Virus record (IMG/VR): IMGVR_UViG_3300042389_000218
Coordinates: 1-24,728 of that record
Strand: one strand, 5' to 3'
Source: a virus
DNA: 24,728 nucleotides
Part shown: positions 2,243 to 24,728 of the stretch, piece by piece
Position numbering within the stretch: position 1 is the first letter of the stretch
Layout: every line of letters begins with the position of its first letter
Translations under genes and position numbers: made by a program
The notes under the pieces: model-generated
The model's input: only the letters and a program-made list of their open reading frames with translations
Told to the model about the DNA's origin: nothing
The model's database searches: none

Positions 2243-5307
<3,065 letters not shown>

Positions 5308-6293: not shown

Positions 6294-7325
6294 CTATTTA
6301 GCCCACCTCTTGAGGGCAATGTGCCCCGCAAGTCCTGAAAATGAGTTGCGGATGATATCATATTGAATGTTGGTTCTTCCGTTCCCTGCAAGAACCATGT
6401 CATTGATGTCCTTCAATCCGCGAAATTTCTCAGACCAAACACATACCTTATGACCGTCTTCCAAAAGACGCTCCATTGCCTCTCCAACCTGTTTGTTGCG
6501 AGGCTCGTTGTCCAAGGCATAGATCAGGTCAGAATCCTTCAGTTCTTCGGGGATATTCGTGGCATCAGACAGTCCGACCATGGCTACGCAGTTGTCCAAG
6601 AACAGACTATCCAAAGGCCCCTCCACGACTATCACTTGTTTCTTTGGATCACAACGATCCAAGCCATACCATGTCTTTCCTGCATCCTTGTCTGCCTTAA
6701 CGGTCAGATATCGAATGGTGCTTCGATCAGGCTTACTGTTACCGATGATTCGTCCTTGTGCCCCCACTACCTTGCCGTCCATGTCTAAGATAGGAATGAC
6801 GATCCGTTCATCATCTCCCGCCTGTACATCGGGGTCGATGTTCTTCGCCCATTCCCCGTAGTTCTCGGAGTAGTAAAGGCGGCTCAGGCTTTCCTTGGGC
6901 AAACGCCGCTTGGTCGCCCACACAACAGCAGGGTGATCATTGGGGAGGGAGTCTAGCCGTGGCAGCAGAGAGAGGATCTTGTCCTCCCTTCGCACGGGTG
7001 CGTGGGTGTGCGCGTCCGCGTGTGCGTGTGTGCGCCCGTGCGAGACTCCTGTTTCCTTGAGTACTTCAAATGTGTACTGCTTGTACAGGTTGGGGTCGAG
7101 CGTTTTCAGCAGCCAACTCAGGGTCGCGCTGTAGTCGCAGTTGTGGCACTTGCATGAGAACGATCCCTTCTTCTCGTACAGATAGAATCGTGCCTTGCTC
7201 TTGCTTTTCTGACTGTCCCCACACATGGGACATCGACACACCGCAAGACTCTGCTTCTTCCATTGAAAGCGGTCTAGGCGAGGTGACAGCAAGTTGATGT
7301 ACTTGGTGTCAATGTGGATCGGCAT
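6294..7325 (-). CDS. 61: DNA primase, T4 gp61 type
   Basis: Makes RNA primers for lagging-strand synthesis together with the gp41 helicase. The protein has 343 residues from the ATG at 7325, close to the 342 of T4 gp61. A zinc site is formed by CPMC (32-35) and C60/C63, followed by a TOPRIM domain with VIVVEGPLDS (231-240, catalytic E235) and ALDNEP (270-275, D272). KDINDM (305-310) is typical of the family. I chose the ATG at 7325 over an in-frame GTG at 7349 because the GTG lies inside a near-consensus sigma70 promoter whose transcripts would start downstream of it. The resulting leader is very short. An unusual alternating His-Ala segment (97-110) separates the zinc and TOPRIM domains. Confidence 0.93.
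   Translation of the reverse strand: MPIHIDTKYINLLSPRLDRFQWKKQSLAVCRCPMCGDSQKSKSKARFYLYEKKGSFSCKCHNCDYSATLSWLLKTLDPNLYKQYTFEVLKETGVSHGRTHAHADAHTHAPVRREDKILSLLPRLDSLPNDHPAVVWATKRRLPKESLSRLYYSENYGEWAKNIDPDVQAGDDERIVIPILDMDGKVVGAQGRIIGNSKPDRSTIRYLTVKADKDAGKTWYGLDRCDPKKQVIVVEGPLDSLFLDNCVAMVGLSDATNIPEELKDSDLIYALDNEPRNKQVGEAMERLLEDGHKVCVWSEKFRGLKDINDMVLAGNGRTNIQYDIIRNSFSGLAGHIALKRWAK
6295..6302 (-). promoter_or_regulatory. T4-late-type promoter box (GCTAAATA) before the small acidic gene
   Basis: The minus strand reads GCTAAATA, 6 of 8 matches to TATAAATA, 18 bases upstream of the ATG at 6277. It overlaps the last codons of the primase gene. Confidence 0.45.
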
Positions 7326-7337
7326 TTGATTTGAGGT

Positions 7338-7366
7338 ACTATACCCCACGATCTGCGGGGTGTCAA
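7338..7366 (-). promoter_or_regulatory. Sigma70-type promoter for the primase
   Basis: On the minus strand, TTGACA (7361-7366) and TATAGT (7338-7343) are separated by exactly 17 bases. Transcription should start near 7331, only about six bases before the ATG at 7325. The spacer begins with CCCC and ends with GGGG, an inverted repeat that could be an operator. This marks the primase as host-polymerase transcribed, hence early or middle. Confidence 0.75.
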
Positions 7367-10451: not shown

Positions 10452-10712
10452 TTAGCCGCCCTTTGCTTTCTTCCAAAGATCAGCATCTGCGGTCTTGCGT
10501 GTCTTACCACCAACGATGAAAGAGTTGACTCTAGCAAACGCCCATTGGTGGCTCGTAGCACCAGGGCGGTGACCGCCCTTCCATGCCGCCATGCCACGGT
10601 CATAGACCTTCTTGAGGATGCCGTATGGAATGCCGCTAGCCTTTGCTTTCTTTTCAAGGGCTGCGATGCGGGCTTCTGAGATGTCCTGCTTGAGCGATTT
10701 ATAGTTCTTCAT
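10452..10712 (-). CDS. DUF5824-like protein with a capsid-targeting-type N terminus
   Basis: 86 residues from the ATG at 10712, which overlaps the stop of the 1198-residue gene as ATGA; a longer in-frame version from 10739 would extend into that gene and is less likely. The body (AKASGIPYGILKKVYDRGMA, then AWKGGHRPGATSHQWAFARV) matches the DUF5824 pattern found in many marine phages, function unknown. The N terminus MKNYKSLKQDISE|A is like T4 internal-protein leaders and ends in the prohead-protease consensus (L/I)xE|A. I infer a head-packaged small protein made from the same late mRNA as the two genes before it. Confidence 0.85.
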   Translation of the reverse strand: MKNYKSLKQDISEARIAALEKKAKASGIPYGILKKVYDRGMAAWKGGHRPGATSHQWAFARVNSFIVGGKTRKTADADLWKKAKGG

Positions 10713-13700
10713 GACTTCTTCTCGGGATTGTAGCCCCATACCTTGAGTGCGAGCAGTTTGCGTGTTGGGCGACCCTTCTCGTCTCGCATGGCACCCTTGG
10801 CACCCTTCATACGATTGATGAAGTTGACTTGCTTACCCGCCCATTTCCAATCGTTGGGTGTCCACTTTTCCTTGGGGGTATCAAGCATGCGAATGATGGC
10901 TCTCGCGGAATCGCGTCCGCTTGTGATCTTTTCACCGCTTGCTCCTGCCTTACCCGCTTCTTTGCGAGAAAGTCCTGCTTCCTTGCCCTCGTCTGAATCT
11001 AGGAAAGATTCAATTTCTTTTCCTGACATGTTTACGAGTTTCTGCCATTCTTTGTAGAGCGCAGACTTCTCCTCTTCAGACTTGTCCTCACCAAGACGCT
11101 CCCGCTCACCAGGGGTGTCCTTTTTGTAGGTCTTGACGATCTCGTCAGAACCGATCAGGAGAGGGCCTCTCTTGCCAATAGCCGTCCATTGCATGGTGGC
11201 ATTGATCTTCTTCGATTCATCAAGCCATCGGGTGGACTCTACTTCCTCTCCGTGCATCTTCCATGCGGTGGCGTAGAAAACATCCTTCCACCGATTGCCA
11301 TATCGCTTTTGGAATTCCTTCTTGATCTTCTCCTTCTTGGAGAAACGACGAGCGGGGCCGCTAGGAGGACTGACTTCCAACATCAGATAGTCGAAGTCCT
11401 CATTAATGTCCGTCTTCGGCTGATCCTTACCCTGCTCATCTCGGATCTCCTTCAAAAGATCGATGTACAAACGGGCGATGTTTGCGGCTTCGGTCATCTT
11501 GCGGAGAATGCAACGCTCCTCGTATGCAATCGACATACGCAACTTTGCACCATTGGTCTCATCGGAAGCATCAATCGCAGCGAGTTTTTCCATGACTTCA
11601 TCATGCTCGTACTGGTTCTTAAGAGCCTTCAACTTGCCCTTCTTCTCCAGTTTCTTGTACAGGCTGCTATACTTCGATGGCTTTGTCTTGATGTCCTTCT
11701 CGTCAGGATTGACGAATTCCCATGTCTGTGGATCATCGTCCGACATGGTCTTTCGCTTCTCCAATCGCTTCTTTCGAAGTTCTGCGTCCTTCTTGGAGAT
11801 ACCCGCGACATACTTCTTTGGAAGACCCGATGTCTTGTCCTTGGGGCTTTCCTTCGTCTTGCCCGACTTGGTCTTGAATTCCTTGCCCTTGGTTACATCG
11901 GCTTCGATGAGGGGATCGCCCTCCATCTCATCGCCCATGCCCAAGACATGAAGCATCGGGTAAAGAAGAGACGCAGCCTTTGAAAGGTATGTGCTTACAT
12001 CAACTCCACCGCTAACAAACAACTTGTCCATCAACTTTACGATGATCTTGCCCACCTTATTGTCGGTAGCAAACGCAGTAAGAGTCATACCCGATACAGC
12101 AGCCTTGTGTGCTTGAACCAAGATTTCGGTTTTGGTCTTCTGCACTTCTTTCTTGAACTCTTCGGGGGGTAGCACCTTTTTCTTGTTCGCTAGAGTGAAC
12201 AACTTGGTGCTGACTGCGGGGGTCTTGATCAGTTCGACCACCGCCTTGGCAGCATCCTTGGTTGCCATCTCCGAAAGTTCTTCCTCTTCCTCCTCGTCGC
12301 CCTTGCGCTTGGAGTTAACATCAGGCTGAGGATAGATCGCTTCTGTGGGGTCTACTACCATTCCCGTCTTGCTGAGGAACTGCAACCCGATCAGAACCTT
12401 CGTAGACATGTGACTGCGATCACCAAGACTGAACTTGATGTTCGCGTACTTCTTGCCGTGGAACTCAATGTCCATCAGAACGACAAGTCGCTTCTTCTCG
12501 CCAATGCCACTCTTGACCGTGATGCGACTGACGATCTTCTTGGTAACCTTCTTGCCGTTGGGCAACTTGAAGGTGACGGTGTGATCGCCATTGTCCTTGA
12601 TGTCTTCGGCATGGATCATGTTGTAGCCGCTGTTGCCTGTGTCGATCTTGGCGGTGTACTCCACGCCATCGATCTTCACCTCTTCGCGCACGGCTAGATT
12701 GGAGAACAACTTCCAATGTGCCTTGTTGAGAATGTAGTCAACAAAGTCTTCGACCAGTTCCTCGCCCTTGACATTGTTCTTGCCCTTGCCATCTTCGTAA
12801 TAGCGGTAGTAGATGTTACCGCTGCCTGGGCTTGCATTCATCTCAATGATGTATGGCTTGCCGTCATTGATGACATGGTCGATTCCGACATAGTAGCACT
12901 TACTAACCCTTGCAGCCCGCTCCACCAACTTTATTTCCTCGTCAGAAAGTTGGAAAGACCCACCCTTTGAACCACGGGCGATGTTGGTACGGAAATCCTT
13001 TGGTGCCTTGTCGCGCTTGGCGCAAGCGAAGATCTTTCCGTTGAGGACGATACTGCGGACATCGTTCTTGAAGTTCGGCAGGAACTCCTGAAGAATAACT
13101 TCCGCACCATACTTCCATAGAGTCTGTAGCACGGACTTGAGGCTTTCCATGCTTTCGATCTTCGAAACGCCGATACCCTCTGCCCCCGTGAGGGTCTTGC
13201 AGATGATCGGGAACTTGCCGCCGACTTCCTTTACGGCAGATTCGATGTTCTCTTCATTGACAACGAAAGCGGTACGGGGATGTGGCAACTCATGCTTCTT
13301 GAGAGCAATTGCCGTCTCCAACTTGTTGGCGCACAGTTCCATGCCGCCACGCTCGTTGATCATGAACACCCCGTTGTTCTGTAGGATGGTCATGATTGCA
13401 ACACCGATCTCGCTGTTCATTACGCCGCCGCGAACAATTGCAACGGTGTTTGCGGGATCGACCACGGCATCTTTGCCTTCACCATCATAGTTCTTGATTG
13501 TGATCTTCTTAGAGGCAACATTGGAAATCTCCACCTGTGCCTTGCTCGTCTTAACAGCATAGAACTCAATCTTGCGCCGCTTGCAAATGGCTTCCATCTT
13601 CTCAATCGTATCGCTGAGATCTTTCTCAGAGGATGTCAGGGCAAGAATGGTGACTTTGTCTTCCCCATCCTTTGCTTCGAAGATGTACTCCTCCTTGAGA

Positions 13701-14305
13701 TTCATGCCCTTGCGGACATCGTTGTACATCTTCTTCTTGATTGCAACATCGTTTCCTGCGATGCCTGTAGAGAACTTCTTGAAGTCTCCATCAAACGCCG
13801 CTGCTCTCATTTTGGATGCGGACATTCCCTGAACGCCCTGTGCATCATCGTCGCGGGCTTCACCCGCCTGAACTACCTCAAAGGTATCGAATGAATACTT
13901 GCGCTTCTTAGGATCGCGCTCGGCAGTCTTGCCCTTGTACTTGGCGATGTTCTTGAAGTTCTCTACCTGATCGCTACCCGCGACCATGATGATGTTCTTG
14001 TAGCCCAAATCGCAGACATACAGAACCGCAGAATATGGATCTCCCGCCTTGTTCAGGGGGAACTTCGCCTTGGGGAAGAACTTCTTTAGATACTCAACCT
14101 TTTGCTTGTGCGTCAGAGGGTTCTTCTTCGGATCCTGTGAGGTAGATGCAAAGATGAAGTGATCCGCATTACGCTTCGATGCTTCGGAAAGAACCTTGTC
14201 AACGAGAACACCGTGACCGATTGTCGGTGGGTTCATGCGACCGAATGCAATAACAACCGTGTCCTTCTTCGGTGCTTCGGTGATGTGCTGTGCGAAGTTC
14301 TTCAC
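10709..14305 (-). CDS. Giant multidomain protein: nucleotidyltransferase, RimK-like ATP-grasp, retropepsin-like protease, packaged-module tail
   Basis: 1198 residues from a GTG start that overlaps the previous stop as GTGA. Residues 15-200 are an NMNAT/cytidylyltransferase-like domain (GRMNPPTIGH at 22-31, MSASKMR at 161-167). Residues 215-530 are RimK-like ATP-grasp, with K370 and a glycine loop (GAEGIG), FRTNIARGSKGG (438-449) and the metal-binding IEMNASPG (487-494). Residues 535-655 match the RimK-associated retropepsin-like protease family, with IDTG (554-557) and VLIGLQFL (637-644). Residues 666-800 are acidic then helical and unrecognised. Residues 824-880 are DUF5872-like (GLPKKYVAG, TKPSKY). 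Small Lys-rich modules follow (979-1020 and 1084-1195). The N terminus MKNFAQHITE|A and further (I/L)xE|A sites at 210 and 801 suggest prohead-protease processing at domain borders. Domain functions are family inference; substrates are unknown. Confidence 0.88.
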   Translation of the reverse strand: MKNFAQHITEAPKKDTVVIAFGRMNPPTIGHGVLVDKVLSEASKRNADHFIFASTSQDPKKNPLTHKQKVEYLKKFFPKAKFPLNKAGDPYSAVLYVCDLGYKNIIMVAGSDQVENFKNIAKYKGKTAERDPKKRKYSFDTFEVVQAGEARDDDAQGVQGMSASKMRAAAFDGDFKKFSTGIAGNDVAIKKKMYNDVRKGMNLKEEYIFEAKDGEDKVTILALTSSEKDLSDTIEKMEAICKRRKIEFYAVKTSKAQVEISNVASKKITIKNYDGEGKDAVVDPANTVAIVRGGVMNSEIGVAIMTILQNNGVFMINERGGMELCANKLETAIALKKHELPHPRTAFVVNEENIESAVKEVGGKFPIICKTLTGAEGIGVSKIESMESLKSVLQTLWKYGAEVILQEFLPNFKNDVRSIVLNGKIFACAKRDKAPKDFRTNIARGSKGGSFQLSDEEIKLVERAARVSKCYYVGIDHVINDGKPYIIEMNASPGSGNIYYRYYEDGKGKNNVKGEELVEDFVDYILNKAHWKLFSNLAVREEVKIDGVEYTAKIDTGNSGYNMIHAEDIKDNGDHTVTFKLPNGKKVTKKIVSRITVKSGIGEKKRLVVLMDIEFHGKKYANIKFSLGDRSHMSTKVLIGLQFLSKTGMVVDPTEAIYPQPDVNSKRKGDEEEEEELSEMATKDAAKAVVELIKTPAVSTKLFTLANKKKVLPPEEFKKEVQKTKTEILVQAHKAAVSGMTLTAFATDNKVGKIIVKLMDKLFVSGGVDVSTYLSKAASLLYPMLHVLGMGDEMEGDPLIEADVTKGKEFKTKSGKTKESPKDKTSGLPKKYVAGISKKDAELRKKRLEKRKTMSDDDPQTWEFVNPDEKDIKTKPSKYSSLYKKLEKKGKLKALKNQYEHDEVMEKLAAIDASDETNGAKLRMSIAYEERCILRKMTEAANIARLYIDLLKEIRDEQGKDQPKTDINEDFDYLMLEVSPPSGPARRFSKKEKIKKEFQKRYGNRWKDVFYATAWKMHGEEVESTRWLDESKKINATMQWTAIGKRGPLLIGSDEIVKTYKKDTPGERERLGEDKSEEEKSALYKEWQKLVNMSGKEIESFLDSDEGKEAGLSRKEAGKAGASGEKITSGRDSARAIIRMLDTPKEKWTPNDWKWAGKQVNFINRMKGAKGAMRDEKGRPTRKLLALKVWGYNPEKKS

Positions 14306-15504
14306 GACTCGTTTACCTTTCTATTCTGTCTGCTGAAGCGCAAACGATTGACCAACTTGACTGCCGTGCCCGTGCGAACGATTACGATCCCCTCGGGATC
14401 TGTGGGACGAATGCCGTCAGCATCTACAAAGAAGTGACCAAGAGCAGACACCGCATACATCTTTCCAAGAATCATTTCCTTGACTTTGGCGATCTTATTG
14501 TGCAACTCAAACATAGCGGTGAACTGACCCTCATACGCATCGATGAACGCGAGAATGTCATTCATGGCGGCTTCCTTCGCCTGTCTGCCCTTCTCGGTCT
14601 TCAACTTATTTAGTTCCTTTTCCAACTTAGTCTTAACATACAATTTCAGACCATTTGTGCTGAAACTGGTCATACCACCATTGATCGTGCTATTAATGTA
14701 GGGGAGCATCAGCGGCATGAGGTCTTTACGGGCAAGCAGCGGCTTCAGGAAGGGCTTTACCTTCTTCGCTAGGGCTTCGCACTCGGTAATGCTCCTGAGA
14801 GCCATATCGCCTTCTCCACCCTTCATAAGGGCAGGGGTGAGGTCGTAGATGTTTGGATCGGTGAACCAAACATCGGGATTCTGCTTGAGTTTGCTAGCGT
14901 TGAAATTGAAGGTGGTTGCCTTCAGATCGGCAAGAGTCTTGCCTGAGTATTCGGTATGGAATGTGATTCCAATCTTTGCGGCGGCGATGCGCTTACCGAT
15001 CTCGCCCTCAGTCGGAACGGTGTAAAGAATCGTATTTGGTTGGAAGCCGATGTGTGGCTTGCCGCCAATCGTGAGGTTCTTCTTGCCGTCTGCGGTGAAC
15101 ATCAGGTCTCCCTGTAGCACCGTCTTGATTCCGATCTTTGGAAGATGCTTTAAGCATTCGACCAACTTGTCAGCCAAGTCCTTGATGTCGAATCCCTTGC
15201 GAATCTCTTGCTCGGTATGAAAGACCTTTTGGACTTGCTTTCCAAAGACACCCTTGATGGCGACGAAGAACTTCTTGTTCTCGGGATTGATACCACAGAT
15301 GACAGCAGGCTTGCCGTCCCACTTGGTGGACATCCCCATGGTAGTGCTGCCTGTCTTGAGGCTCTGAACAATGTCCTTCATGAAGGCAATAGCATTGTCC
15401 AATCCGCTGCCACCACGAAGAAGCATAAGATCTTCGATGTGATCTAGGTGCTTGTTCTGCTCAGTTTGCTCTATCAGGGGGAGCATTTGCTTAAATGACA
15501 GCAT
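14302..15504 (-). CDS. DUF6267-like protein with polynucleotide-ligase nucleotidyltransferase motifs
   Basis: 400 residues. It carries a KWDG motif (61-64), which matches the nucleotide-accepting KxDG motif I of DNA/RNA ligases and capping enzymes. QGDLMF (131-136) resembles motif III, EGIVIV (371-376) motif IV, and VKLVNR (382-387) motif V. The order is correct, but about 230 residues lie between motifs III and IV, more than in ordinary ligases, so an inserted helical domain is likely (about 225-345). I recall the family as DUF6267 of marine T4-like phages. It has a late-type promoter and an AGGAGA site, and heads the operon with the 1198-residue protein. The N terminus MLSFKQMLPLIE|Q weakly resembles a capsid-targeting peptide. 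Ligase or RNA-end-modifying activity is inferred. Confidence 0.85.
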   Translation of the reverse strand: MLSFKQMLPLIEQTEQNKHLDHIEDLMLLRGGSGLDNAIAFMKDIVQSLKTGSTTMGMSTKWDGKPAVICGINPENKKFFVAIKGVFGKQVQKVFHTEQEIRKGFDIKDLADKLVECLKHLPKIGIKTVLQGDLMFTADGKKNLTIGGKPHIGFQPNTILYTVPTEGEIGKRIAAAKIGITFHTEYSGKTLADLKATTFNFNASKLKQNPDVWFTDPNIYDLTPALMKGGEGDMALRSITECEALAKKVKPFLKPLLARKDLMPLMLPYINSTINGGMTSFSTNGLKLYVKTKLEKELNKLKTEKGRQAKEAAMNDILAFIDAYEGQFTAMFELHNKIAKVKEMILGKMYAVSALGHFFVDADGIRPTDPEGIVIVRTGTAVKLVNRLRFSRQNRKVNES

Positions 15505-15542: not shown

Positions 15543-15617
15543 TAGGCGGGGCGGGAGTCGAACCCGCATGAGGGCGATTATAAGTCACCACCTTTTACCA
15601 CTATCAGGCACCCGCCC
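15543..15617 (-). tRNA. tRNA-Ile with anticodon UAU (reads AUA)
   Basis: 75 nt folding as a cloverleaf. The acceptor stem GGGCGGG pairs with CCCGCCT (first pair G-U), and the discriminator is A. The D arm has a 3-bp stem and GG in the loop. The anticodon stem GGTGA/TCGCC holds the loop CTTATAA, giving anticodon TAT after U33 and before A37, and the variable loop has 5 nt. The T arm GCGGG-TTCGACT-CCCGC is canonical. No CCA is encoded. It starts five bases after the helicase stop, so it is probably cut from the helicase mRNA. Bacteria usually read AUA with a lysidine-modified CAU tRNA, so a UAU tRNA would be a phage supplement. Confidence 0.88.
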
Positions 15618-15622
15618 GTAGA

Positions 15623-17068
15623 TTAAGACCAACCCTTTATGGCGGGTTTCTCGCGCCCGTACCCGCCCGTGCGCCTGTACGCGCCCCCGCCCCCGTGCGC
15701 GTGACCATTGTCTTCATCGTCTTGGTCTTCGGCAGCGTTGCCTTGAATCAACTGCTGCTGAGATTCATCCACATCAAACAACTTCATCTTTGCACGGTCG
15801 ATGCCAATCACGAACTTACGGTTCGTGGCGACATCGTTGTATCGATTCTTCAACTGCTTCACCATCACCTGTCCCAACTCGTCCAACTGCTCGGTTGCAA
15901 TGAGTGCAAACATGAAGTCTGCGGTGGCAGGAAGACCGAATGATTCCGATGTATCCGTGAGTTCGACATCGGTGTTGCCAAAGCCCGAACGGTTGGTCTG
16001 TGTTGCAGTAAAGATCGGAACACCGATCTCCACAGCCAAGCCACGAAGTTCCTCGGCAATCGCCTTCACATAGGTGTACGAGTTGACATTCCCATTTGCC
16101 TTGAAGCGGGAGGATGCACAGATGTTGAGATAGTCAATGAAGATGACATCGGGCTTGAAGTTCTTCTTCAGTCGAAGTTCGTCCAACAGGTGACGAAAGT
16201 GGTTGACATTCGCAGATGCGGTTGGGTATTCCTTGATCAGGAGTTTTCCTGTGATGCCCATGGTCACCTTGGCTAGACGCTTGGCATAGATCTCCATCGG
16301 CAACTTCTTGAGATCGTCAAGCGTGATGTCCATCAGGTTGGCATCGATGCGTTCTGCGATCCGCTCCTCAGCCATCTCGCATGTGATGTATAGCACATTC
16401 TTGCTTTGGGTCAGGCAGTTGGCGGCATGGTGGCACATGAACAGGGACTTGCCCACACCAGTACCCGCTAGAATGACATTCAGAGTCTTGTCGGGCACCC
16501 CGCCGTTAGTGATCTTGTTGAAGTAGTCAAGGTCAAACGCCGTCTTCTTCTCCACGCGGTGGTAGAAGTCATAGCGTTTCTCTGCGTCTTCGATGAAGTC
16601 GTGTCCGATATGCTCATCGAAAGATACGCTGAGAGCCTTGGTCAGGATCTCGGGGATCGCGTTCTTTGAGCGACCCTTCGCCTTCTTCTCGTCTAGCAGT
16701 TCAACGGACTCCATGAGAGCGTTGTAGACAGCCTTGTCCTTGCAGAACTTCTCGGTCTGATCGACAAGCCATTGCTCATCAGGCTCCTCGCCCGACTTCT
16801 CCAAGCACTCCACCAACTTGACACACTCATCGAACTCGCCCTGAGACAGACCATCCTGCTGATTGAGGATGATCTTTAGGGCTTCGCGGGTGGGTGCGGT
16901 AGCATACTTCTCAATGAAATCAGATACCGTATTGAACAGCCGCTTCTCGCAGGGGTCATGAAAGTATTCCTGCTTGAGAAACGGCTGAACACGGCGTGTG
17001 AATTCAGGACGGTGAAGAAGGCTGCGAAGAATGATGAGTTCGATGTTGTCCGTCATGGATTCGGACAT
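15623..17068 (-). CDS. 41: Replicative DNA helicase, T4 gp41 / DnaB type
   Basis: Unwinds DNA 5'-3' at the fork as a hexamer and works with the gp61 primase. 481 residues: an N-terminal helical domain (1-130), a linker and a RecA-like ATPase. Walker A is AGTGVGKS (201-208), Walker B is VIFIDYLN (308-315), and TATQTNRSG (354-362) and KNRYND (407-412) are the later helicase motifs. It is close in length to T4 gp41 (475). The C-terminal tail (450-481) is odd: acidic and then Gly/His/Arg-rich, encoded by very GC-rich DNA sharing the octamer CCCGTGCG with the primase insert. The ATG at 17068 has only a weak GAAAG site; Met5 is an alternative. The tRNA follows directly. Confidence 0.95.
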   Translation of the reverse strand: MSESMTDNIELIILRSLLHRPEFTRRVQPFLKQEYFHDPCEKRLFNTVSDFIEKYATAPTREALKIILNQQDGLSQGEFDECVKLVECLEKSGEEPDEQWLVDQTEKFCKDKAVYNALMESVELLDEKKAKGRSKNAIPEILTKALSVSFDEHIGHDFIEDAEKRYDFYHRVEKKTAFDLDYFNKITNGGVPDKTLNVILAGTGVGKSLFMCHHAANCLTQSKNVLYITCEMAEERIAERIDANLMDITLDDLKKLPMEIYAKRLAKVTMGITGKLLIKEYPTASANVNHFRHLLDELRLKKNFKPDVIFIDYLNICASSRFKANGNVNSYTYVKAIAEELRGLAVEIGVPIFTATQTNRSGFGNTDVELTDTSESFGLPATADFMFALIATEQLDELGQVMVKQLKNRYNDVATNRKFVIGIDRAKMKLFDVDESQQQLIQGNAAEDQDDEDNGHAHGGGGAYRRTGGYGREKPAIKGWS

Positions 17069-17097: not shown

Positions 17098-18021
17098 TCA
17101 GATCAACCAATTCATCAATGAAACCTTTGGAGACCAACCCAATAGTTCTTTTGCTTTTTGCCAGTTGCAAAGCGTATGTCTTGCCTCGCCTGACCGTGGG
17201 GGCAGGAATCGAATTGTTCCATCGTCACCCGCGATCACCTTGGCAATCTCAATCACGGAGTGGGAAGTTCCCGTACCGATGTTGATGATGTCACCATTGA
17301 ACTTTTTGATTGAATTCGCAGCAGCGATGTTGGCAGACACAATGTCAGAGACATGGATGTAGTCCCGTGTCTGCATTCCATCTCCGACTACTGTGAGGGG
17401 GACACCCTCTGCCTTCTGTCGCTTGAACACAGCCACAACGGGGCAATACTGACCTTTGTTGGATTGTCCTTCTCCGTACACATTGAAGTAACGCAGAGAA
17501 ACGGTGTCCATGTAATGAACGCCGTTATCGGTAACCAAAGGCTTACTGTAGAGTTTGCACAACTCCTCACACATCAACTTGCTTGTCGAATAGATGTTGA
17601 GGCAGTCAGTCTTGCCCATCTCATTCTGACTTCCGTACAAACCGAAAGAAGCATCGCCCATCCCATAGATTGCGGATGTCGATGAGAACACAAAGCGAGA
17701 GACCCCCGCCTTTCTCGCACAGTCCAGTACATTAAAAGTACCAGTAACATTAGAGTTGGAGGTCTTTTGTGGATTGGCAATGCAACGGGGAATACTAACT
17801 TCCGCTGCCATGTGAAAAACCATATCGACTTGTTCAAAGTCGGAAACTGTAAGGTCATTGATATCGCAGTTCATATTGACTGCGCGATCATCCCATTTGA
17901 ATTTTTCGTGTCCCTCGGAACTTTCGTTATCGACACAGATAACGGTGTTTCCGTTGTCTAGCAGAGCCTTTACCAAATGAGAACCTATGAACCCTGCGCC
18001 GCCCGTCACCATGTACCGCAT
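17098..18021 (-). CDS. NAD-dependent nucleotide-sugar epimerase/dehydratase (GalE-like SDR)
   Basis: 307 residues of the extended short-chain dehydrogenase family. The Rossmann motif GGAGFIG is at 7-13, followed by CVDNES and the CDINDL acidic segment. A FSSTSAIYG strand is followed by the catalytic YSTSK. NVTGTFNVLDCARKAG and RDYIHVSDIV are typical of UDP-glucose/UDP-GlcNAc 4-epimerases. The exact substrate cannot be told. The ATG at 18021 has an AAGGA site. It follows a methyltransferase and ends the sugar block just before the helicase. The C terminus is slightly short but the fold looks complete. Confidence 0.9.
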   Translation of the reverse strand: MRYMVTGGAGFIGSHLVKALLDNGNTVICVDNESSEGHEKFKWDDRAVNMNCDINDLTVSDFEQVDMVFHMAAEVSIPRCIANPQKTSNSNVTGTFNVLDCARKAGVSRFVFSSTSAIYGMGDASFGLYGSQNEMGKTDCLNIYSTSKLMCEELCKLYSKPLVTDNGVHYMDTVSLRYFNVYGEGQSNKGQYCPVVAVFKRQKAEGVPLTVVGDGMQTRDYIHVSDIVSANIAAANSIKKFNGDIINIGTGTSHSVIEIAKVIAGDDGTIRFLPPRSGEARHTLCNWQKAKELLGWSPKVSLMNWLI

Positions 18022-18024
18022 GTA

Positions 18025-18588
18025 TTAGTCCTTTTTTAGATAAACCCAACAGCCCTCAGTTTCAGTCACGGGACGAACAGATTCATCTACTGCTCGTCTT
18101 ACCGATTCACTCCAAGAGTAATCATGGCCTGCTAAGTATCCACCGACCTTTACCTTTGGCAACCATGCCGCAATGTCTTGTTTTACACAAGCATAATCGT
18201 GACACGCATCGATGAACACCACATCCAAAGAGTTGTCGCTATATGTTGCCGCAGCCTCAATGGAAGAGAGTCTAACGGCTTTTACAACCTTTGAAACAGG
18301 GGAGATGTTCGAACAGAACAATTGATAGAGAGTATTTGTCTTCACATAGGTGTCATTTTTGTGATACGACTCTGTTGACATTTCCGCCCATGTGTCTACT
18401 GCATCAACTGCGATGTCCTTCCCCGAGTTGATGATTTCTACCCCCAAGTAAGCAATGCTCTTTCCTTTCCAACAACCAACCTCAACGATTTTTGAACCAT
18501 TGGGGAGTTGCTTCACGAACGAAGAGTATAGATTTGGGTATGTGAACCAGTTTTCCCCAAATTGGGGCTGTTGGTATATGTGTTCCAT
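18025..18588 (-). CDS. SAM-dependent class I methyltransferase
   Basis: 187 residues. The SAM-binding motif I is IVEVGCWKGKS, followed by AVDAVDTW (motif II region), DVVFIDACHDYACVKQDI and GGYLAGHDYSW, the pattern of the Methyltransf_24 family often found in polysaccharide clusters. It may methylate a sugar or an intermediate made by the neighbouring enzymes; the substrate is unknown. It lies between the RmlB-like dehydratase (21 bases upstream) and the epimerase (3-base gap), likely in one operon with both. Confidence 0.88.
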   Translation of the reverse strand: MEHIYQQPQFGENWFTYPNLYSSFVKQLPNGSKIVEVGCWKGKSIAYLGVEIINSGKDIAVDAVDTWAEMSTESYHKNDTYVKTNTLYQLFCSNISPVSKVVKAVRLSSIEAAATYSDNSLDVVFIDACHDYACVKQDIAAWLPKVKVGGYLAGHDYSWSESVRRAVDESVRPVTETEGCWVYLKKD

Positions 18589-18609
18589 ATAGAAGTGTTC
18601 CGTTCCCTA

Positions 18610-19650
18610 TCAGATCGAATGATGAAGAACAGGTCGTGAACCAACTTCAGATGGCTTCATCCCGATCCATTGTGGGTTCGACAGAGACCACTTTACAACA
18701 GCCTCCATCGATTGACTGAGGTTCATCGGAAGATCCCAGCCCATTTCCTTCATCTTGCTTCCGTCCAATGCATATCGAAGGTCGTGCCCAGGTCTGCTGC
18801 TGTGGAAGTCAACCAACTCGTAGTTCAGCGGCTTGTCCATGATGTTTGCAATCATCTTTGCGAGAGAAAGATTGTCGATCTCTCGTTCGCCCACGATGTT
18901 GAACTTATCACCGTTCTTACCGTTCTTGAGGATGAAGTCTACAGCAGAGCAGACATTCTGAGCGTGAATGTAGAACCGACTTCCTGCAAGGGTGAGGCTC
19001 TTGTTGGCGTGAATGATGACCTTTTCGCCTTTGTAGATCTTGCGGATACAGGACGGAATGAACTTCTCTGGGTGCTGACGCTCACCAAAGATGTTCATGC
19101 AATGCGAGATTTTGATGGGCATCTTGTAAGTGTTTTCAAAGGCAAGACAGAGTTCTTCGCCGCCCGCCTTTGTAGCAGAGTATGGATTGCCCGACTGATA
19201 CCGATCCCATTCCTTGTAGTTTACACCCTCGGGTGCTGGGCCAAACACTTCGTCTGTTGAGAAGTATACAAAGTTGTCGAGGTTGTCGAGGTGACGGGCA
19301 TAGTTGAGGATATTGCAAGTGCCTACAACATTGTCCATGACAAACGACAGCGGGTCTTCGATGCTTCGATCCACATGGGATCCTGCGCCAATGTGAAGAA
19401 CCGTATCAGGTTCGCCCAACAGGGAGCAAAGAATCTCGTTGTTGTACAACTCGGCACGGAGATCGTGCCATACGAACTTCACTCTGTTGCTGTTATTCTT
19501 CCAAGATGGAAGTTCGGTGAGACGATTGAGATTGCCCGACACATCCAATCTGTCAATGATGGTGATGTTTGCGTCCGTATTACGGAGCAAGTAATCGACC
19601 ATATGATGACCAACGAATCCAACGCCACCCGTGATGAGAACATTCTTCAT
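18610..19650 (-). CDS. dTDP-glucose 4,6-dehydratase-like protein (RmlB family)
   Basis: 346 residues, similar to RmlB. The NAD motif is ITGGVGFVG (5-13). The catalytic signature STDEVFG carries the Thr-Asp-Glu typical of 4,6-dehydratases, and YSATK supplies the Tyr/Lys pair. NIFGERQHPEKFIPSCIRKI and SRFYIHAQNVCSAVDF match the sugar-binding C-terminal part. It would form a 4-keto-6-deoxy sugar nucleotide, the entry point to rhamnose and other deoxy sugars. It has its own sigma70-type promoter (19675-19703) and an AAAGG site, so it and the two downstream genes can be expressed apart from the rest of the block. Confidence 0.9.
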   Translation of the reverse strand: MKNVLITGGVGFVGHHMVDYLLRNTDANITIIDRLDVSGNLNRLTELPSWKNNSNRVKFVWHDLRAELYNNEILCSLLGEPDTVLHIGAGSHVDRSIEDPLSFVMDNVVGTCNILNYARHLDNLDNFVYFSTDEVFGPAPEGVNYKEWDRYQSGNPYSATKAGGEELCLAFENTYKMPIKISHCMNIFGERQHPEKFIPSCIRKIYKGEKVIIHANKSLTLAGSRFYIHAQNVCSAVDFILKNGKNGDKFNIVGEREIDNLSLAKMIANIMDKPLNYELVDFHSSRPGHDLRYALDGSKMKEMGWDLPMNLSQSMEAVVKWSLSNPQWIGMKPSEVGSRPVLHHSI

Positions 19651-19674
19651 AGTGTAGACCTTTCGATTTGTCTG

Positions 19675-19703
19675 ATTCTAACAGTACTTATGCTTGATGT
19701 CAA
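19675..19703 (-). promoter_or_regulatory. Sigma70-type promoter before the RmlB-like gene
   Basis: TTGACA (19698-19703) and TAGAAT (19675-19680) on the minus strand are separated by 17 bases. The start is expected near 19668, giving a leader of about 18 bases. The -35 box sits inside a 6-bp inverted repeat (GCTTGA at 19692-19697, TCAAGC at 19700-19705). It overlaps the end of the GDPD-like gene. Confidence 0.75.
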
Positions 19704-20179
19704 GCCCTAGTATTTTGCTTTCCGAACTTCTCTACACAATCGTAGATGTAATCGGAACAAACTCCAACAAAACCTGTTTGATTGTACGACATCACAGATT
19801 CCCGAGAGAGTAAAGGAATGATGCACTTGTCGTTCATTTGATTTTCCAAATCATGCGACCAAATCAGACCGTTGCTGATGAGGGTGTAGCGATCCGATTC
19901 ATGGCAGAAGTAGTTTGTCCCTGGACAGTTTTTCATCAACCAAATCAGGGCTTGATACTCTTTGACATGAATCCAAAGATAATACCAACGCTTTCGTATC
20001 CACTCAGCAGAAACTGGGTAGTCAGGTGTGTCGTGTCCCAAATGAGGGACACCATCTTTCATGCGAAGATCAATCTCACAATGAAATCCCTTGCTTAGGC
20101 ATTCCTCTATGTAAGCGGGTTCGTTTTCCCTTTGTGTATTGACTCCGTCAAGATTTCCACGGTGCGAAATGAAGATCAT
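19700..20179 (-). CDS. Short glycerophosphodiester phosphodiesterase-like (GDPD) protein
   Basis: 159 residues from the ATG at 20179, which overlaps the previous stop as ATGA; a longer in-frame start at 20236 would extend into that gene and is less likely. The GDPD active-site pattern is present: SHRGN (5-9), then CEIDLRMKDGVPHLGHD (34-50), giving the His-Arg, Glu/Asp and His-Asp residues for metal binding and catalysis. The family is normally about 230-250 residues, so part of the barrel is missing. Such short versions may act on a nucleotide-linked or phosphodiester-linked sugar intermediate, fitting the neighbouring nucleotidyltransferase. Activity is uncertain. Confidence 0.82.
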   Translation of the reverse strand: MIFISHRGNLDGVNTQRENEPAYIEECLSKGFHCEIDLRMKDGVPHLGHDTPDYPVSAEWIRKRWYYLWIHVKEYQALIWLMKNCPGTNYFCHESDRYTLISNGLIWSHDLENQMNDKCIIPLLSRESVMSYNQTGFVGVCSDYIYDCVEKFGKQNTRA

Positions 20180-21033
20180 CTGATTACCGTCTCCTTTAGT
20201 AGATCTTGCTTTGCTGCAAGATGGTATTTCTTCCAATAGTCAAATGCCGCAGCAGCGTCTGTTGCTGTCTTACATTGACCCCCATTCAGGATAGTCACCC
20301 ATGCCTCAAAATTCTGTACCTCTTCGGGGGTTCCAAAAACGGTGACGAATGGGGTGTCGTAGTACCCCACTTTCAATCCATCACGGACAAGAAGATTGTA
20401 GACGAGCGTAACATAGAACTCGCCGTTGTACTGGATATTCTCCTTGACTGCTTGGTCGAAGTATTTCTTGATGTAAGAACCCTTCTTGAAGTAGTAGACC
20501 CCCGTAGAAGCATGCTCATTTAGCGGGTTGTTTGTGTAGCAAGCCTTCTCCTTGATCTCGTCAAGCACCCCATCAGAACCTTTGACGAACGCCATCTTGG
20601 TGTGTGCCAAGGTGTGGGGGTGAAACCCAGTATGAGTGAGAACACAGCCATCGAAATCACCATTCGTCATCTTTGCATGGAAATCATCCCGATTCCACAG
20701 ATGAGGGTTGTCACAATACGAAATAATGACCTCCTCATCATCGTCAATCATGTCATAGACTGTTTGCACCGTGTATACGGGGCCCAACTTGTGTTGTGGC
20801 ATCGAAACGATTGTTGCGTTTGGCACCAGTTCCTCAAGAACACTCCTCATGTTTGTCGTTTCTAAATGCACAGAGTTGCAGATGAAGACGAACTCGTCAT
20901 TCTTGCGGTCGAACATATCCAAGATGTATTCGATTATTCGCTTGCCATTTACTTTGATGAGTGGCTTGGGGTCTTTATACCCCCGCTCAACAAATCGATT
21001 GCCAGTACCCGCCATAGGAATCACAATCTTCAT
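20176..21033 (-). CDS. Sugar-phosphate/phosphoalcohol nucleotidyltransferase
   Basis: 285 residues. The N terminus IPMAGTGNRFVERGYKDPKP is the nucleotide-binding signature of the NTP_transferase family (GxGxRF...PKP), followed by LIKVNGKRIIEY. EEVIISYCDNPHLW includes the metal-binding aspartate region, and GCVLTHTG and TGVYYFKKGSYIKKYF are typical later blocks. It activates a phosphorylated small molecule by attaching NMP; the base and substrate are not readable. It overlaps both neighbours by ATGA, so it is tightly coupled to the kinase/aldolase fusion and the GDPD-like protein, suggesting a three-gene pathway. Confidence 0.9.
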   Translation of the reverse strand: MKIVIPMAGTGNRFVERGYKDPKPLIKVNGKRIIEYILDMFDRKNDEFVFICNSVHLETTNMRSVLEELVPNATIVSMPQHKLGPVYTVQTVYDMIDDDEEVIISYCDNPHLWNRDDFHAKMTNGDFDGCVLTHTGFHPHTLAHTKMAFVKGSDGVLDEIKEKACYTNNPLNEHASTGVYYFKKGSYIKKYFDQAVKENIQYNGEFYVTLVYNLLVRDGLKVGYYDTPFVTVFGTPEEVQNFEAWVTILNGGQCKTATDAAAAFDYWKKYHLAAKQDLLKETVIR

Positions 21034-22430
21034 ACTAAAGCCTTCCTGTATTTCTCTGACTGCATGTTGTTTAACTGCTGCACTTCAGAACTATCCAAAA
21101 ACTTGGGGTTCAGACAGGCACCCATCATCAACCGAAGTATGTAGTTGTTCGTCTCTCCCATCTCATCGGGAAGAACAGCGGCATCGGGGAAAAGCGGGGC
21201 ATGTGCGATAGCGTCCTCAATATCAACAAACGATTCGACATGATTGCCTAACCATTTCTTGCATCGACGGTTGATGTCTTCCGTCATGACCATCGCACTC
21301 TCTGCTGTTTTCGCACTCACGATTAGTCCGTGGTTCTCTAAGAAGATCACTCCACGAAGATCTCTGATCCTATTCGTGAGTCTCGCACCTGGGGTGGTGT
21401 ATTCTACGAACTCATATGAGAGATCCTGAAATAGACCTCGAACGATAGCCCGTGCCTCTTTGCTACAAAGAATGACATTCAAATGGATTGGGTGAGTATG
21501 TACAACAACTTGATCGGAAATGGATGCATGAAACCCTGTTTCCATAGAGGGTCTTTGCGTACCCGCGATCTTTGATTGGTTGATGAACTGGTTGTATTCA
21601 TCCTCTCTTTCGAAGCGAGGTATTGACTCACCATCGATGTTGCATAGGCAGAATCCATGATGGAGATTAATGTCTGCCATGTTCGATCCTGATGCTTTGA
21701 TGATCAACCCGCTATTGGACTTTACGGATACATTCCCGCCCCTGCCTTGTGTCAGAGATGGCTCAAGAGACAGCCATTTACAGATATCCATGAACTCAGT
21801 CAGGCTTTCGTAGAAGCCCTTCACTTTAGACATTAGCGATTCGCCAGTTCCCGTGACAGAGACATACTCTAAAGAGATGTCCCCGTCTTTTGACTTGGTG
21901 AACTTTACGATGATGTCTGCGCGGTTCTTTTGTGGGGTAATATAGATCTCTTCATCGCGCTTGCGTCTTCGCATTGTGTCTAAGACTTGCGACTCGGTAT
22001 ATCCCCTCTTCTTGGTGTCGCGTTTGACTTTCCACTCGGTCTTGAGTGCATGATCAGTATCAACGAATATCTTGATGTCTGCCAATGACATAGTGGGATC
22101 ATGATAAAGAGCATGAAGACCCTCATAGACAATGTACTTTTTGGGTTCTATTGTGATCGCAGGGTCAAACTTCCCTGTATCGTGATTATAGATCCTTCGA
22201 CTGACGGGTCTCTGCTGCTTCAGGGAAACGATATGATCGTATCCCATCTCCAAATCATTCGCCTCGGGGTTCAAGTGAGTCAAGTTGTTCCAAACTGGAT
22301 CACTTCTTTCCCACTTATGCAGATCATCACCACTAACAAGCACAGTATCGCTATCTCCCAATACAGATCGGATGAGATGTGCGATGGTGGTTTTTCCAAC
22401 GCCCGAACTACCAGAAATACAAATGTTCAT
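21030..22430 (-). CDS. Kinase / class II aldolase fusion
   Basis: 466 residues with two catalytic domains. Residues 1-195 form a uridine kinase/phosphoribulokinase-like P-loop kinase: GSSGVGKT (7-14), RRIYNHDTG (78-86) and YEGLHAL (102-108), the last two close to phosphoribulokinase motifs. Residues 205-466 form a class II aldolase/adducin domain: GRGGNVSVK (229-237), the zinc-binding HTH (311-313) and ENHG (365-368, third His). Aldolases of this type split or form phosphorylated ketoses such as fuculose-1-P and rhamnulose-1-P. A kinase making the phosphosugar and an aldolase acting on it in one chain is plausible. Overlaps both neighbours by ATGA. Confidence 0.88.
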   Translation of the reverse strand: MNICISGSSGVGKTTIAHLIRSVLGDSDTVLVSGDDLHKWERSDPVWNNLTHLNPEANDLEMGYDHIVSLKQQRPVSRRIYNHDTGKFDPAITIEPKKYIVYEGLHALYHDPTMSLADIKIFVDTDHALKTEWKVKRDTKKRGYTESQVLDTMRRRKRDEEIYITPQKNRADIIVKFTKSKDGDISLEYVSVTGTGESLMSKVKGFYESLTEFMDICKWLSLEPSLTQGRGGNVSVKSNSGLIIKASGSNMADINLHHGFCLCNIDGESIPRFEREDEYNQFINQSKIAGTQRPSMETGFHASISDQVVVHTHPIHLNVILCSKEARAIVRGLFQDLSYEFVEYTTPGARLTNRIRDLRGVIFLENHGLIVSAKTAESAMVMTEDINRRCKKWLGNHVESFVDIEDAIAHAPLFPDAAVLPDEMGETNNYILRLMMGACLNPKFLDSSEVQQLNNMQSEKYRKALV

Positions 22431-23329
22431 GGATACATCTTTGCTTCGGTGAGTAGTTGCAGCAACGCCTTTTCGTGTGGTTCATACGGGAGTGGGCAAT
22501 GTATCTCAACCAACATCCCATCCTGAAGTCTATTGGGGCATCTACGGTCGGCATCATGTCTAAACCGCACTCCATCCCAAACAGGGGGATAGTAGTTTGG
22601 GTTATACGCATGTTGATACTTCGCCTCAAGCCGTTGGAATTGCGCCAAATACTCTCGCACAAACATTCCTTGGAAGTTTTTGGGTCGGAAGTAATCCCAT
22701 ACCTTTTCCGATGTGTAGTGTTCTTCAGCCATCCAATGGTCTCCCCTCTGTTCGCGCATGTGCGGGGGATCGCCTTCGCGGATGTCCTTGTATTTTCCTG
22801 AGTCTATGATTTCTTTCTTCAGGAATGTTGAGTAATCCTCATAGTCAGCGAAGAATAGTTGCTTCAGAACTTTGCCTTTGGCGCAATGATAATGCCCTGG
22901 GAGGTCGTAACCGCCCATCTTTAATGCACCTTTTTCGAAATATGTTTTGGGATTTAGTCCCATCTCCCTACCAATGATGGAGTAATTCAAGTGGCAGTAT
23001 GAATCATCGGGGATCGATTCCATGCCTGCAAGGAAATACTCTTTCTGTAGTGGGATAAGATCGATGTCACCGATGAGCCATGTAGTCTCAGGTTCAAGGT
23101 GAGGATACCAAAATCTGCTGAATTGCAGTTGAAGAACAGAAGGAACTGTCGGGTCGGGCTTAAGTTCTACTACCTCGCCGTATTCTTCCGACATACCACA
23201 CTTCCGCTTATCTCCATACAGGAAGCAGACGGGATGGATGCCCAACTTGGTTTTCCACACCCTAGATTGGATGTTCCAAAATGGGCTGAACAATTCAGAG
23301 CAGGGGAATGCAATCTTGTCGATCTTCAT
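22427..23329 (-). CDS. Putative glycosyltransferase
   Basis: 300 residues. A WLIGDIDLIPL segment (84-94) carries a DxD-type metal/nucleotide-sugar motif on a strand, the clearest sign of a GT-A fold. The N-terminal region has alternating strands (IAFPCSELF, HPVCFLYGD), and conserved-looking aromatic blocks follow (HMREQRGDHWMAEEHYTSEK). I cannot assign a family or sugar. It is coupled by ATGA overlap to the FkbM methyltransferase before it and to the kinase/aldolase after it. Confidence 0.72.
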   Translation of the reverse strand: MKIDKIAFPCSELFSPFWNIQSRVWKTKLGIHPVCFLYGDKRKCGMSEEYGEVVELKPDPTVPSVLQLQFSRFWYPHLEPETTWLIGDIDLIPLQKEYFLAGMESIPDDSYCHLNYSIIGREMGLNPKTYFEKGALKMGGYDLPGHYHCAKGKVLKQLFFADYEDYSTFLKKEIIDSGKYKDIREGDPPHMREQRGDHWMAEEHYTSEKVWDYFRPKNFQGMFVREYLAQFQRLEAKYQHAYNPNYYPPVWDGVRFRHDADRRCPNRLQDGMLVEIHCPLPYEPHEKALLQLLTEAKMYP

Positions 23330-23955
23330 GTGTTATCCTTAATGTAAATCGCCTCGCCCGAACCCGAATAGGAAATCCAAGTCTCTTTTCTGTTCAGGTT
23401 ATACCTATTGAGTTGGTAGTCTAGGTAATTCATGTGTGTGTTCTCATGGTAGAGATCCTGTACGCTTACCTCAGAATACACAACATCCATGCGCTTCAGC
23501 GTTTCAGTCGCTCCTAGAACAATCTTTCCCTCGTACCCCTGCGCGTCTAATACCATGCAGGAAAAATCATTCATTGAAAGAGCAAACTCATTGGTTTCAA
23601 ACCAATCGTCCAATCTTTTTACAGAAACAGACTCCTCACCAACAAACTTTACATCGGGATGTGCTACCAAATGATGACTTGGTTTTAGAATCGAAGACGA
23701 TTCAAAGTTGTCGGCAACATTCATCACAAGAGTTTCGTTGGTAGAACCCAAAGCGCAGTTGACTTTGTAAACGCCTTCACACACGGGAATTTTTCCAAAC
23801 GGCTCGGTCAGCGGTTCGAACAGAAGTATCTTCGCAAAGCCAAGTTCTTTGTAAAAGCCTATTTCTTCACCAATATGGGCACCAACATGAATAATACCGT
23901 CTCTCTTTGTCTTGCCATACTTTGCCAACAGTTTTTTGAAGTCCATATGAAGCAT
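23326..23955 (-). CDS. FkbM-family SAM-dependent methyltransferase
   Basis: 209 residues. Family signatures are DGIIHVGAHIGEE (SAM-binding glycine motif), ILLFEPL, YKVNCALGS, SVKRLDDWF and MVLDAQGYEGKIVLGA, the standard FkbM order. FkbM proteins O-methylate sugars and are frequent in capsule and phage glycan clusters. The ATG at 23955 has a GGAT site; Met4 is a possible alternative start. The gene sits between two glycosyltransferases, so methylation of a glycan that they build is likely. Confidence 0.93.
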   Translation of the reverse strand: MLHMDFKKLLAKYGKTKRDGIIHVGAHIGEEIGFYKELGFAKILLFEPLTEPFGKIPVCEGVYKVNCALGSTNETLVMNVADNFESSSILKPSHHLVAHPDVKFVGEESVSVKRLDDWFETNEFALSMNDFSCMVLDAQGYEGKIVLGATETLKRMDVVYSEVSVQDLYHENTHMNYLDYQLNRYNLNRKETWISYSGSGEAIYIKDNT

Positions 23956-23966
23956 GAGTTATCCAA

Positions 23967-24728
23967 TCAGATTGAGTTGATGTTGTCTCTGTACCACTTC
24001 TCTGCGGGATAGTATGAAAGAGTCTCCACACCGACACGCCTCTGTGCGGGGCGACCATAGAGACCCACATGAACAGGTCGAGCAGGATCGGGAGTCTGTG
24101 GAAACTCGTACATGTGGTTGAGTATGAGGTTTCGATTGAAAGCAGAGTATTTCCCACCACCCTCGTTGTGCTTAATCATGTTCTCGGCGTTTGTTGGTGC
24201 CATGTCAATACAGTTATGAATTTTGTTCGTCATATAGCACGGAAGTGAACGCTGCTTTTTAACTTCCCACCTCCAAAGCCAATCACCATCTTCCTCACCA
24301 AACCCCAAGAGCCGTTCATCGAAGTATCCCACATCGAAGAGATCCTGACGATTGACGCTGAAGTGAGAAAAACTGTAGTTGATTCGGAATGATTCGTTCT
24401 TTGATTCGCGCAGCATTCCCTCATAGTCATCAAAGAACCCGCTAGCAAGAATCACATCATCGTTCAGATTGAGGATGTAATCTGTGTTCGTGAAGTTGAA
24501 ACAACTATTCCACATGAAAGAACAACCACGAACGATTGGGGACATGATGAGATATGTGCGAGGACACAGAGAGCAGAATCGCATAATCTCCTTGCGATAC
24601 TCCTGATCGAATCCTTTCTTGTGCTGTCCATTGACAAATACAACCTTGTCAACATCAGGACGCATCGCACAAATAGAGTTCATCAAAGGCTTGAAATACT
24701 TGTCGAGCCTGTATACAAATGTCGATAT
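23967..24728 (-). CDS. Glycosyltransferase (GT-A, family 2-like), 5' end beyond the window
   Basis: The frame is open through the right edge. Residues before the internal Met (STFVYRLDKYFKPL) look like a genuine part of a GT2-type domain, so the start lies outside. Motifs are NLNDDVILASGFFDDY, with the metal-binding Asp pair, and FDERLLGFGEEDGDWLWRW, the acidic ED motif seen in family 2 and chondroitin-synthase-type enzymes. At least 253 residues are present. Sugar donor and acceptor are unknown; context suggests building of a surface or virion glycan. Confidence 0.85.
   Translation of the reverse strand: MSTFVYRLDKYFKPLMNSICAMRPDVDKVVFVNGQHKKGFDQEYRKEIMRFCSLCPRTYLIMSPIVRGCSFMWNSCFNFTNTDYILNLNDDVILASGFFDDYEGMLRESKNESFRINYSFSHFSVNRQDLFDVGYFDERLLGFGEEDGDWLWRWEVKKQRSLPCYMTNKIHNCIDMAPTNAENMIKHNEGGGKYSAFNRNLILNHMYEFPQTPDPARPVHVGLYGRPAQRRVGVETLSYYPAEKWYRDNINSI

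Follow-up and report, generated by a model that had tools for sequence, protein, structure and literature searches.

The DUF6267 gene and its conserved motifs

The window analysed here, 24,728 bases long, is a virus record; the gene of interest in it encodes a member of the Pfam family DUF6267. The open reading frame lies on the minus strand at positions 14302-15504, begins with ATG and encodes 400 amino acids; plus-strand frame 1 across the same positions is broken by stops. The protein matched DUF6267 (PF19782) with an E-value of 1.4e-92 and 311.4 bits against a cut-off of 27, over positions 1-373 of the 376 in the profile, and PHROGs assigned it to phrog_455, a family of unknown function. 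In P-HM2, S-PM2, S-SM1 and Syn1 the family is annotated as T4-GC 71 (the number is that of the genome annotations). PF19782, phrog_455 and T4-GC 71 are the DUF6267 family itself, and the libraries assign no function to it, in agreement with a preliminary description of the window made from its sequence alone. An NCBIfam scan of the protein detected no family. PF01068 (ATP-dependent DNA ligase) was absent among its Pfam matches at E-values up to 1, and neither PF09414 (the T4 Rnl2 family) nor PF01653 (LigA) gave a Pfam match on it. In the collection of papers searched, none named the family as DUF6267, PF19782, phrog_455 or T4-GC 71.

Relatives of the protein include a long group (159 loci, two isolate loci, L082 and L083, included) and a compact, cyanophage-type form (80 loci). 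The features of the gene, all on the minus strand, are as follows.

14302..15504, minus: DUF6267 gene, predicted covalent nucleotidyltransferase of the ligase superfamily, 400 amino acids (open reading frame, Pfam, AlphaFold2, structural alignment)
15439..15441, minus: H22, invariant; probably near R149 of the Naegleria RNA ligase, judging by the ends of the structural alignment
15313..15324, minus: motif I, KWDG, residues 61-64, with predicted nucleophile K61 (85-row alignment, isolates and compact loci)
15253..15255, minus: K84, invariant, candidate basic residue of motif Ia (alignments)
15106..15114, minus: motif III, QGD, residues 131-133, with Glu in place of D133 in Synechococcus phage S-T4
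15022..15036, minus: candidate motif IIIa, NTILY, residues 157-161, placed from strand order (AlphaFold2 model)
14947..14958, minus: HTEY, residues 183-186, H183 and Y186 invariant (alignments)
14449..14814, minus: helical insert spanning residues 231-352; N271 and K342 within it are invariant (AlphaFold2 model, alignment)
14383..14394, minus: motif IV, EGIV, residues 371-374 (alignments)
14344..14358, minus: motif V, KLVNR, residues 383-387; V385 stands at the position of the second Lys in other ligases

Conservation was evaluated in an 85-row alignment (A2) of the window and 84 of 191 loci, hand-picked for spread with near-duplicates and truncated loci excluded. Twenty-one columns of the 400 residues are invariant, among them H22, K61, D63, G64, P66, K84, G132, D133, N157, H183, Y186, N271, K342, E371, G372, V374 and K383. 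The residues K61, D63, G64, D133, E371, G372 and K383 all fall within these 21 columns, an outcome with a probability of about 4e-10 for a random draw of columns. Because motif I formed part of the patterns that retrieved some relatives in A2, a bias that favours K61, D63 and G64 in those rows, the counts were repeated on 14 isolate phages recovered by tblastn without motif patterns and on the 80 compact loci. The search patterns for the latter lay outside motifs I, IV and V, but since one of them covers motif III and another the N-terminal histidines, these positions do not count as independent in this set. K61, D63, G64, E371, G372 and K383 were kept in all 14 isolates and D133 in 13, the lone exception being the Glu of S-T4, which is the residue of the ligases quoted for comparison. 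The corresponding K, D and G were present in 80 of 80 compact loci, and E, G and K in all 79 that reach that region. Among the isolates and compact loci, N157 was replaced by Gln in one isolate and V385 by Ile in one. H183, Y186, N271 and K342 matched the catalytic motifs in their invariance, both in the long forms and in the compact ones. Judged from these alignments, conservation of the motifs is in excess of chance.

These counts agree with the preliminary description, which had placed KWDG, GDLMF, EGIVIV and KLVNR in ligase order (they lie at residues 61-64, 132-136, 371-376 and 383-387) and had made its proposal depend on conservation of K61 and of the EGIV motif among homologs; K61 and the EG of this motif are conserved. 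The unusually long stretch that it saw between motifs III and IV was also found: 237 residues separate D133 from E371, and the stretch corresponds to the helical insert.

Predicted fold and structural neighbors

The AlphaFold2 model built from A2 had a mean predicted local distance difference test score (pLDDT) of 92.7 and a predicted template modeling score of 0.88. A second predicted model, of a compact relative of 302 amino acids, had a pLDDT of 92.0. Its alignment (A4) comprised the window, 24 of the 80 compact loci and 50 others; as 51 of its rows also occur in A2, the two models are only partly independent. When the models were compared with the PDB by Foldseek, the first 17 rows for the compact model were ligase or capping entries, and the list for the long model had ligases interspersed with unrelated, mostly helical proteins. 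A second aligner, VIA-align, was applied to Foldseek's top 1000 chains (992 were aligned for the long model) and listed 50 entries for each model. All 50 were ligases or ligation complexes for the long model, and all 50 were again ligases for the compact model. The long model gave Z values of 9.1 with the Naegleria RNA ligase (the best), 7.8 with T4 Rnl2, 7.7 with tRNA ligase, 7.0 with T4 Rnl1 and up to 6.7 with DNA ligases, and the best value for the compact model was 8.7, again with the Naegleria enzyme; by the aligner's own warning, best Z values of 7 to 8 are common for unmatched models.

The Naegleria gruberi RNA ligase (NgrRnl; PDB 5cot and mutants) was the closest listed neighbor of both models, and 183 residues of the long form aligned with it at a root-mean-square deviation of 3.8 and about 12% identity. 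The order of K61, D63, D133, E371 and K383 corresponds to that of K170, D172, E227, E312 and K326, which PMC9931718 gives as the catalytic residues of NgrRnl. When residues are counted from the ends of the alignment, E371 and K383 land on E312 and K326 to within one position. The ligase fold was accepted because the listed neighbors were unanimous, the compact model repeated the result and the catalytic residues match. The two models support the proposal of a ligase-superfamily nucleotidyltransferase: a predicted fold unrelated to the ligase domain, which the preliminary description had named as a refuting result, did not occur. The predicted structures support DUF6267 as an unrecognized family of the known superfamily of covalent nucleotidyltransferases (DNA and RNA ligases) and not as a new kind of enzyme.

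The predicted layout is a single nucleotidyltransferase domain with a helical insert. Upstream of motif I the long model has one long helix and no separate Ia-type domain. In the stretch from the third motif to motif IV, the insert region measures 107 to 135 residues (median 127) over the 85 rows of A2 and 76 to 80 over the 24 compact rows, with a mean net charge of +8.7 (range -3 to 16) and +5.5, respectively. NgrRnl differs in having an N-terminal OB domain and, in the aligned part, no comparable helical insert, whereas DUF6267 has Asp in motif III and is without the second motif-V Lys. The nucleotidyltransferase domains of T4 Rnl2 (1s68) and T4 Rnl1 (2c5u) align with the model, and the FS that follows motif V in DUF6267 resembles that of Rnl2, but DUF6267 has no counterpart of the C-terminal domains of these enzymes. 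T4 gp30 DNA ligase shares the superfamily fold and membership in a phage replication module. Its motif I is KADGAR; DUF6267 has the invariant P66 where gp30 has Arg, so that KxDGxR is not formed, and it has no OB domain.

The closest parallel in build is human C12orf29 (RLIG1), a one-domain enzyme without an OB domain that was matched by AlphaFold and DALI to the Naegleria ligase with a Z of 7.4, auto-AMPylates K57 and ligates RNA (PMC9931718, PMC11494293), including tRNA (PMC11494293). As these papers describe it, RLIG1 resembles DUF6267 in its single nucleotidyltransferase domain, KxDG motif, lack of an OB domain and top match to the Naegleria ligase, and differs in having Glu in motif III. 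No RLIG1 entry was among the structural neighbors listed for either model.

In a viral structure library, an annotated RNA ligase of the Agrobacterium phage Atu_ph07 was found at row 21 (E-value 2.7e-3, root-mean-square deviation 15.3); the Atu_ph07 genome gave no match to the A4 profile in a search run without a positive control. Remoter viral structural relatives were a protein of Pseudomonas phage PA5oct and uncultured Caudovirales proteins of 825-915 amino acids named cytidyltransferase-like. Such remote relatives suggest that the family may be wider than sequence searches reveal.

Genomic setting and distribution

The genes around DUF6267 in the window that bear on its function are listed below; a ThyX gene also lies further downstream, with the primase.

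10709..14305, minus: next gene, 1198 amino acids, cytidylyltransferase-like, RimK-type ATP-grasp and retropepsin-like (retropepsin/RimB-like) regions; overlaps the DUF6267 stop by 4 nt
15543-15617, minus: tRNA-Ile, anticodon tat (ARAGORN), between the helicase and DUF6267
15623..17068, minus: gp41/DnaB-type replicative helicase, upstream neighbor (Pfam, PHROGs)
6294..7349, minus: DNA primase, same module (PHROGs)

By tblastn, the family was detected in 464 (window query) or 469 (query from locus L074) of 50,697 phage records. Most were cyanomyoviruses, and others were phages of Pelagibacter, Methylophilales, Vibrio, Pseudoalteromonas and Stenotrophomonas. Synechococcus, Cyanophage and Prochlorococcus records numbered 454 for the L074 query and 459 for S-PM2 UvsX (E-values up to 1e-60), these being totals by organism name and not a record-by-record pairing. 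By such name counts, DUF6267 appears near-universal in T4-like cyanophages.

The recurrent neighbors of DUF6267 were replication genes. Among loci that extend 3.5 kb or more upstream, 58 of the 83 in the long group and 16 of the 24 in the genome-contig group have a helicase gene upstream on the same strand. Where there was room for it, a cytidylyltransferase region was found within 1.5 kb downstream in all 57 compact loci, in 61 of the 119 long-group loci and in 13 of the 27 genome-contig loci, and in S-PM2 and L074 DUF6267 is fused to a cytidylyltransferase-like domain. A tRNA lies within 1 kb of DUF6267 in 16 of 273 loci; all are tRNA-Ile and belong to close relatives of the window only.

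The preliminary description had seen a candidate new ligase-superfamily enzyme in a late operon, at the head of the polyprotein operon. The ligase-superfamily enzyme, in a family labelled unknown, is supported, and the gene runs straight into the polyprotein gene at 10709..14305, with the 4-nt overlap. The late operon is not supported: the recurrent neighbors are those of replication, and promoter-like motifs gave no clear answer. CTAAATA, which we take to be a cyanophage late motif, occurs four times in the window, always on the minus strand (1.24 expected; 4 of 100 shuffles reach four), with one copy about 20 nt upstream of the DUF6267 gene, and TATAAATA-like sites occur at chance level. No conclusion is drawn from CTAAATA.

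Elsewhere in the window, a run of sugar-nucleotide type genes (two SDR epimerase/dehydratases, methyltransferases and an NTP transferase) extends over about 17098-24686, and at 21030-22430 (minus) a PRK/uridine-kinase-family domain is fused to a class II aldolase domain. A 1022-amino-acid protein with eight collagen-repeat stretches, probably a fiber, is encoded at 2239-5307 (minus), and a further long open reading frame at 2-2242 runs off the left end. The 168-kb contig G001 (locus L009), one of the 13 virus contigs screened for ligases, contains a close relative of the module, with a DUF6267 protein 93% identical to that of the window, and would give access to the rest of this phage type.

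Relation to the gp30 DNA ligase

A 2010 review states that homologs of gp30 DNA ligase were not found in T4-like cyanophages, and offers two options: distant g30 homologs were unidentified, or they are absent and the host supplies the activity, which was held more probable (PMC2984593). DUF6267 was present in 11 of 11 isolate genomes. PF01068 was over the cut-off in none of these genomes and in none of 13 virus contigs (one 10-bit scrap fell below it), and PF09414 and PF01653 were over the cut-off in none of the 24 records that these make up, a set that did not include DLP6, S-CRM01 and Syn1. Among the 13 contigs there may be several fragments, and ligase absence there says little. PF09511 was not detected in 15 records. 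A search for T4-type polynucleotide kinase, in which T4 served as the positive control, likewise found none in 15 DUF6267 records. The T4 genome matched PF01068, PF09414 and PF09511, did not match PF01653 and had no DUF6267.

Among three further DUF6267 phages, PF01068 was over the cut-off in two, Stenotrophomonas phage DLP6 and the freshwater cyanophage S-CRM01, both of which have an annotated DNA ligase. The canonical DNA ligases of S-CRM01 and DLP6, besides DUF6267, are located as follows.

L329, 1305-2168: canonical DNA ligase
L330, 987-2339: canonical DNA ligase

Since these two phages carry both genes, DUF6267 is not simply a stand-in for gp30, and strict replacement, weakened in this way, was set aside. 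A looser form of the idea is tentative: DUF6267 might serve T4-like cyanophages and their relatives as the replication ligase. It would then be an RNA-ligase-shaped enzyme of one domain, encoded in the gp43-uvsX-gp41-gp61 cluster, that seals Okazaki or recombination nicks and does the gp30 job with a different architecture.

Proposed function

The computation supports the predicted fold, the invariant catalytic residues and the genomic setting. Given this fold and a complete set of catalytic residues, lysyl-nucleotide chemistry is likely, and a polynucleotide ligase is the most probable use. The reading that we favor, with a probability of roughly 0.55, is that DUF6267 may be a polynucleotide ligase of a single domain that AMPylates itself, resembles RNA ligases most closely in structure and acts in the phage replication module. 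Human RLIG1 offers a precedent by analogy, as a one-domain ligase recognized from AlphaFold and DALI and then shown to be active.

In the mechanism that we infer, including its donor, the choice of ligation over other transfer, its substrate and its role, a nucleoside triphosphate, most likely ATP, would bind in the cleft, and K61 would accept AMP as lysyl-AMP. D63, D133 and E371 would hold metal and K383 phosphate. The AMP would then be handed to a 5'-phosphate end, and attack by a 3'-OH would seal the break. The helical insert probably provides the nucleic-acid contacts, the OB domain being absent. The role would most likely be the sealing of nicks or breaks from replication or recombination; RNA-containing ends are perhaps the substrate because the nearest structures are RNA ligases. 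The replication setting favors nicks in phage DNA, whereas the closest structures, the lack of nick sealing by RLIG1 and coexistence with a DNA ligase in two phages favor RNA or hybrid ends.

Several results weigh against a ligase of this kind. Foldseek gave no PDB match for the long model at E-values up to 0.001 (best 0.46), and the best E-value for the compact model, 0.073, was not significant. Z values near 8 to 9 barely exceed the level that unmatched models reach. Phmmer and profile searches of PDB sequences returned only coiled-coil-like matches with E-values of 0.52 or worse, and profile-profile comparison of DUF6267 with the T4 Rnl2 family detected no similarity, either whole or with insert columns removed. 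Only helix follows motif V, so no OB domain is there, and where motif V of the Rnl2 family has invariant K225 and K227 (KxK), DUF6267 has K383-L-V385, with a single Lys. No nick sealing was seen with RLIG1, which is the nearest precedent among one-domain enzymes (PMC9931718). S-SM1 virions are reported to contain T4-GC190, a cyanophage cluster related to the 1198-amino-acid neighbor (PMC3037559), so that DUF6267 may have a virion role. DUF6267 and a canonical DNA ligase occur together in 2 of the 27 checked records.

T4 Rnl1 joins tRNA broken by host defense nucleases, and a distinctly less probable reading is that DUF6267 is likewise an RNA repair ligase that joins broken RNA, such as tRNA so cut, with the replication setting incidental. 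The margin of RNA ligases over the best listed DNA ligase rows (2.4 Z units for the long model, about 2.7 for the compact one), the absence from motif I of the Arg carried by DNA ligases, the coexistence with a DNA ligase in two phages and the activity of RLIG1 on tRNA are all consistent with it. The absence of T4-type polynucleotide kinase from the DUF6267 records argues against it, although RLIG1-type ligation needs none if the ends are already 5'-phosphate and 3'-OH, and so does the adjacent tRNA-Ile, which is lineage-specific. A repair module of the T4 Rnl1/polynucleotide kinase type was set aside, no relative of the kinase having been found and the tRNA adjacency being confined to one lineage.

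The remaining readings give up either ligation, the ATP donor or catalysis. An improbable one is a covalent nucleotidyltransferase that caps the 5' end of RNA or modifies a protein or small molecule, perhaps with the cytidylyltransferase as partner. The fusions in S-PM2 and L074, the frequency of such a region downstream and the one capping-complex entry among the compact model's first 17 Foldseek rows speak for it, but the listed VIA-align neighbors were all ligases and DUF6267 is without the OB domain of capping enzymes. Capping and AMP transfer to protein, both named in the preliminary description, are possible, and no result here points that way. We give very little credence to a ligase fuelled by NAD+, in which the partner would make NAD+ like an NMN adenylyltransferase, DUF6267 would take adenylate from it, and H19 and H22 would replace the NMN-binding part of LigA. 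The fused or adjacent CTP_transf-like domain and the invariant histidines upstream of motif I would fit, but there is no PF01653 match, and the single upstream helix does not form an Ia-type domain. It is just as improbable that DUF6267 is a catalytically dead ligase relative serving as a structural or virion protein. That reading draws on the lack of a known activity and on the virion-associated product of the neighboring gene, but the full catalytic set is retained wherever sequences reach, with D133 to Glu the sole change.

The question of the missing ligase becomes directly testable with this near-universal cyanophage gene, whose product has a predicted ligase fold and retains the active-site residues. 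If the favored reading of DUF6267 as a polynucleotide ligase is true, a domain of unknown function would become an enzyme family of unusual build, with no OB domain, a helical insert and one motif-V lysine.

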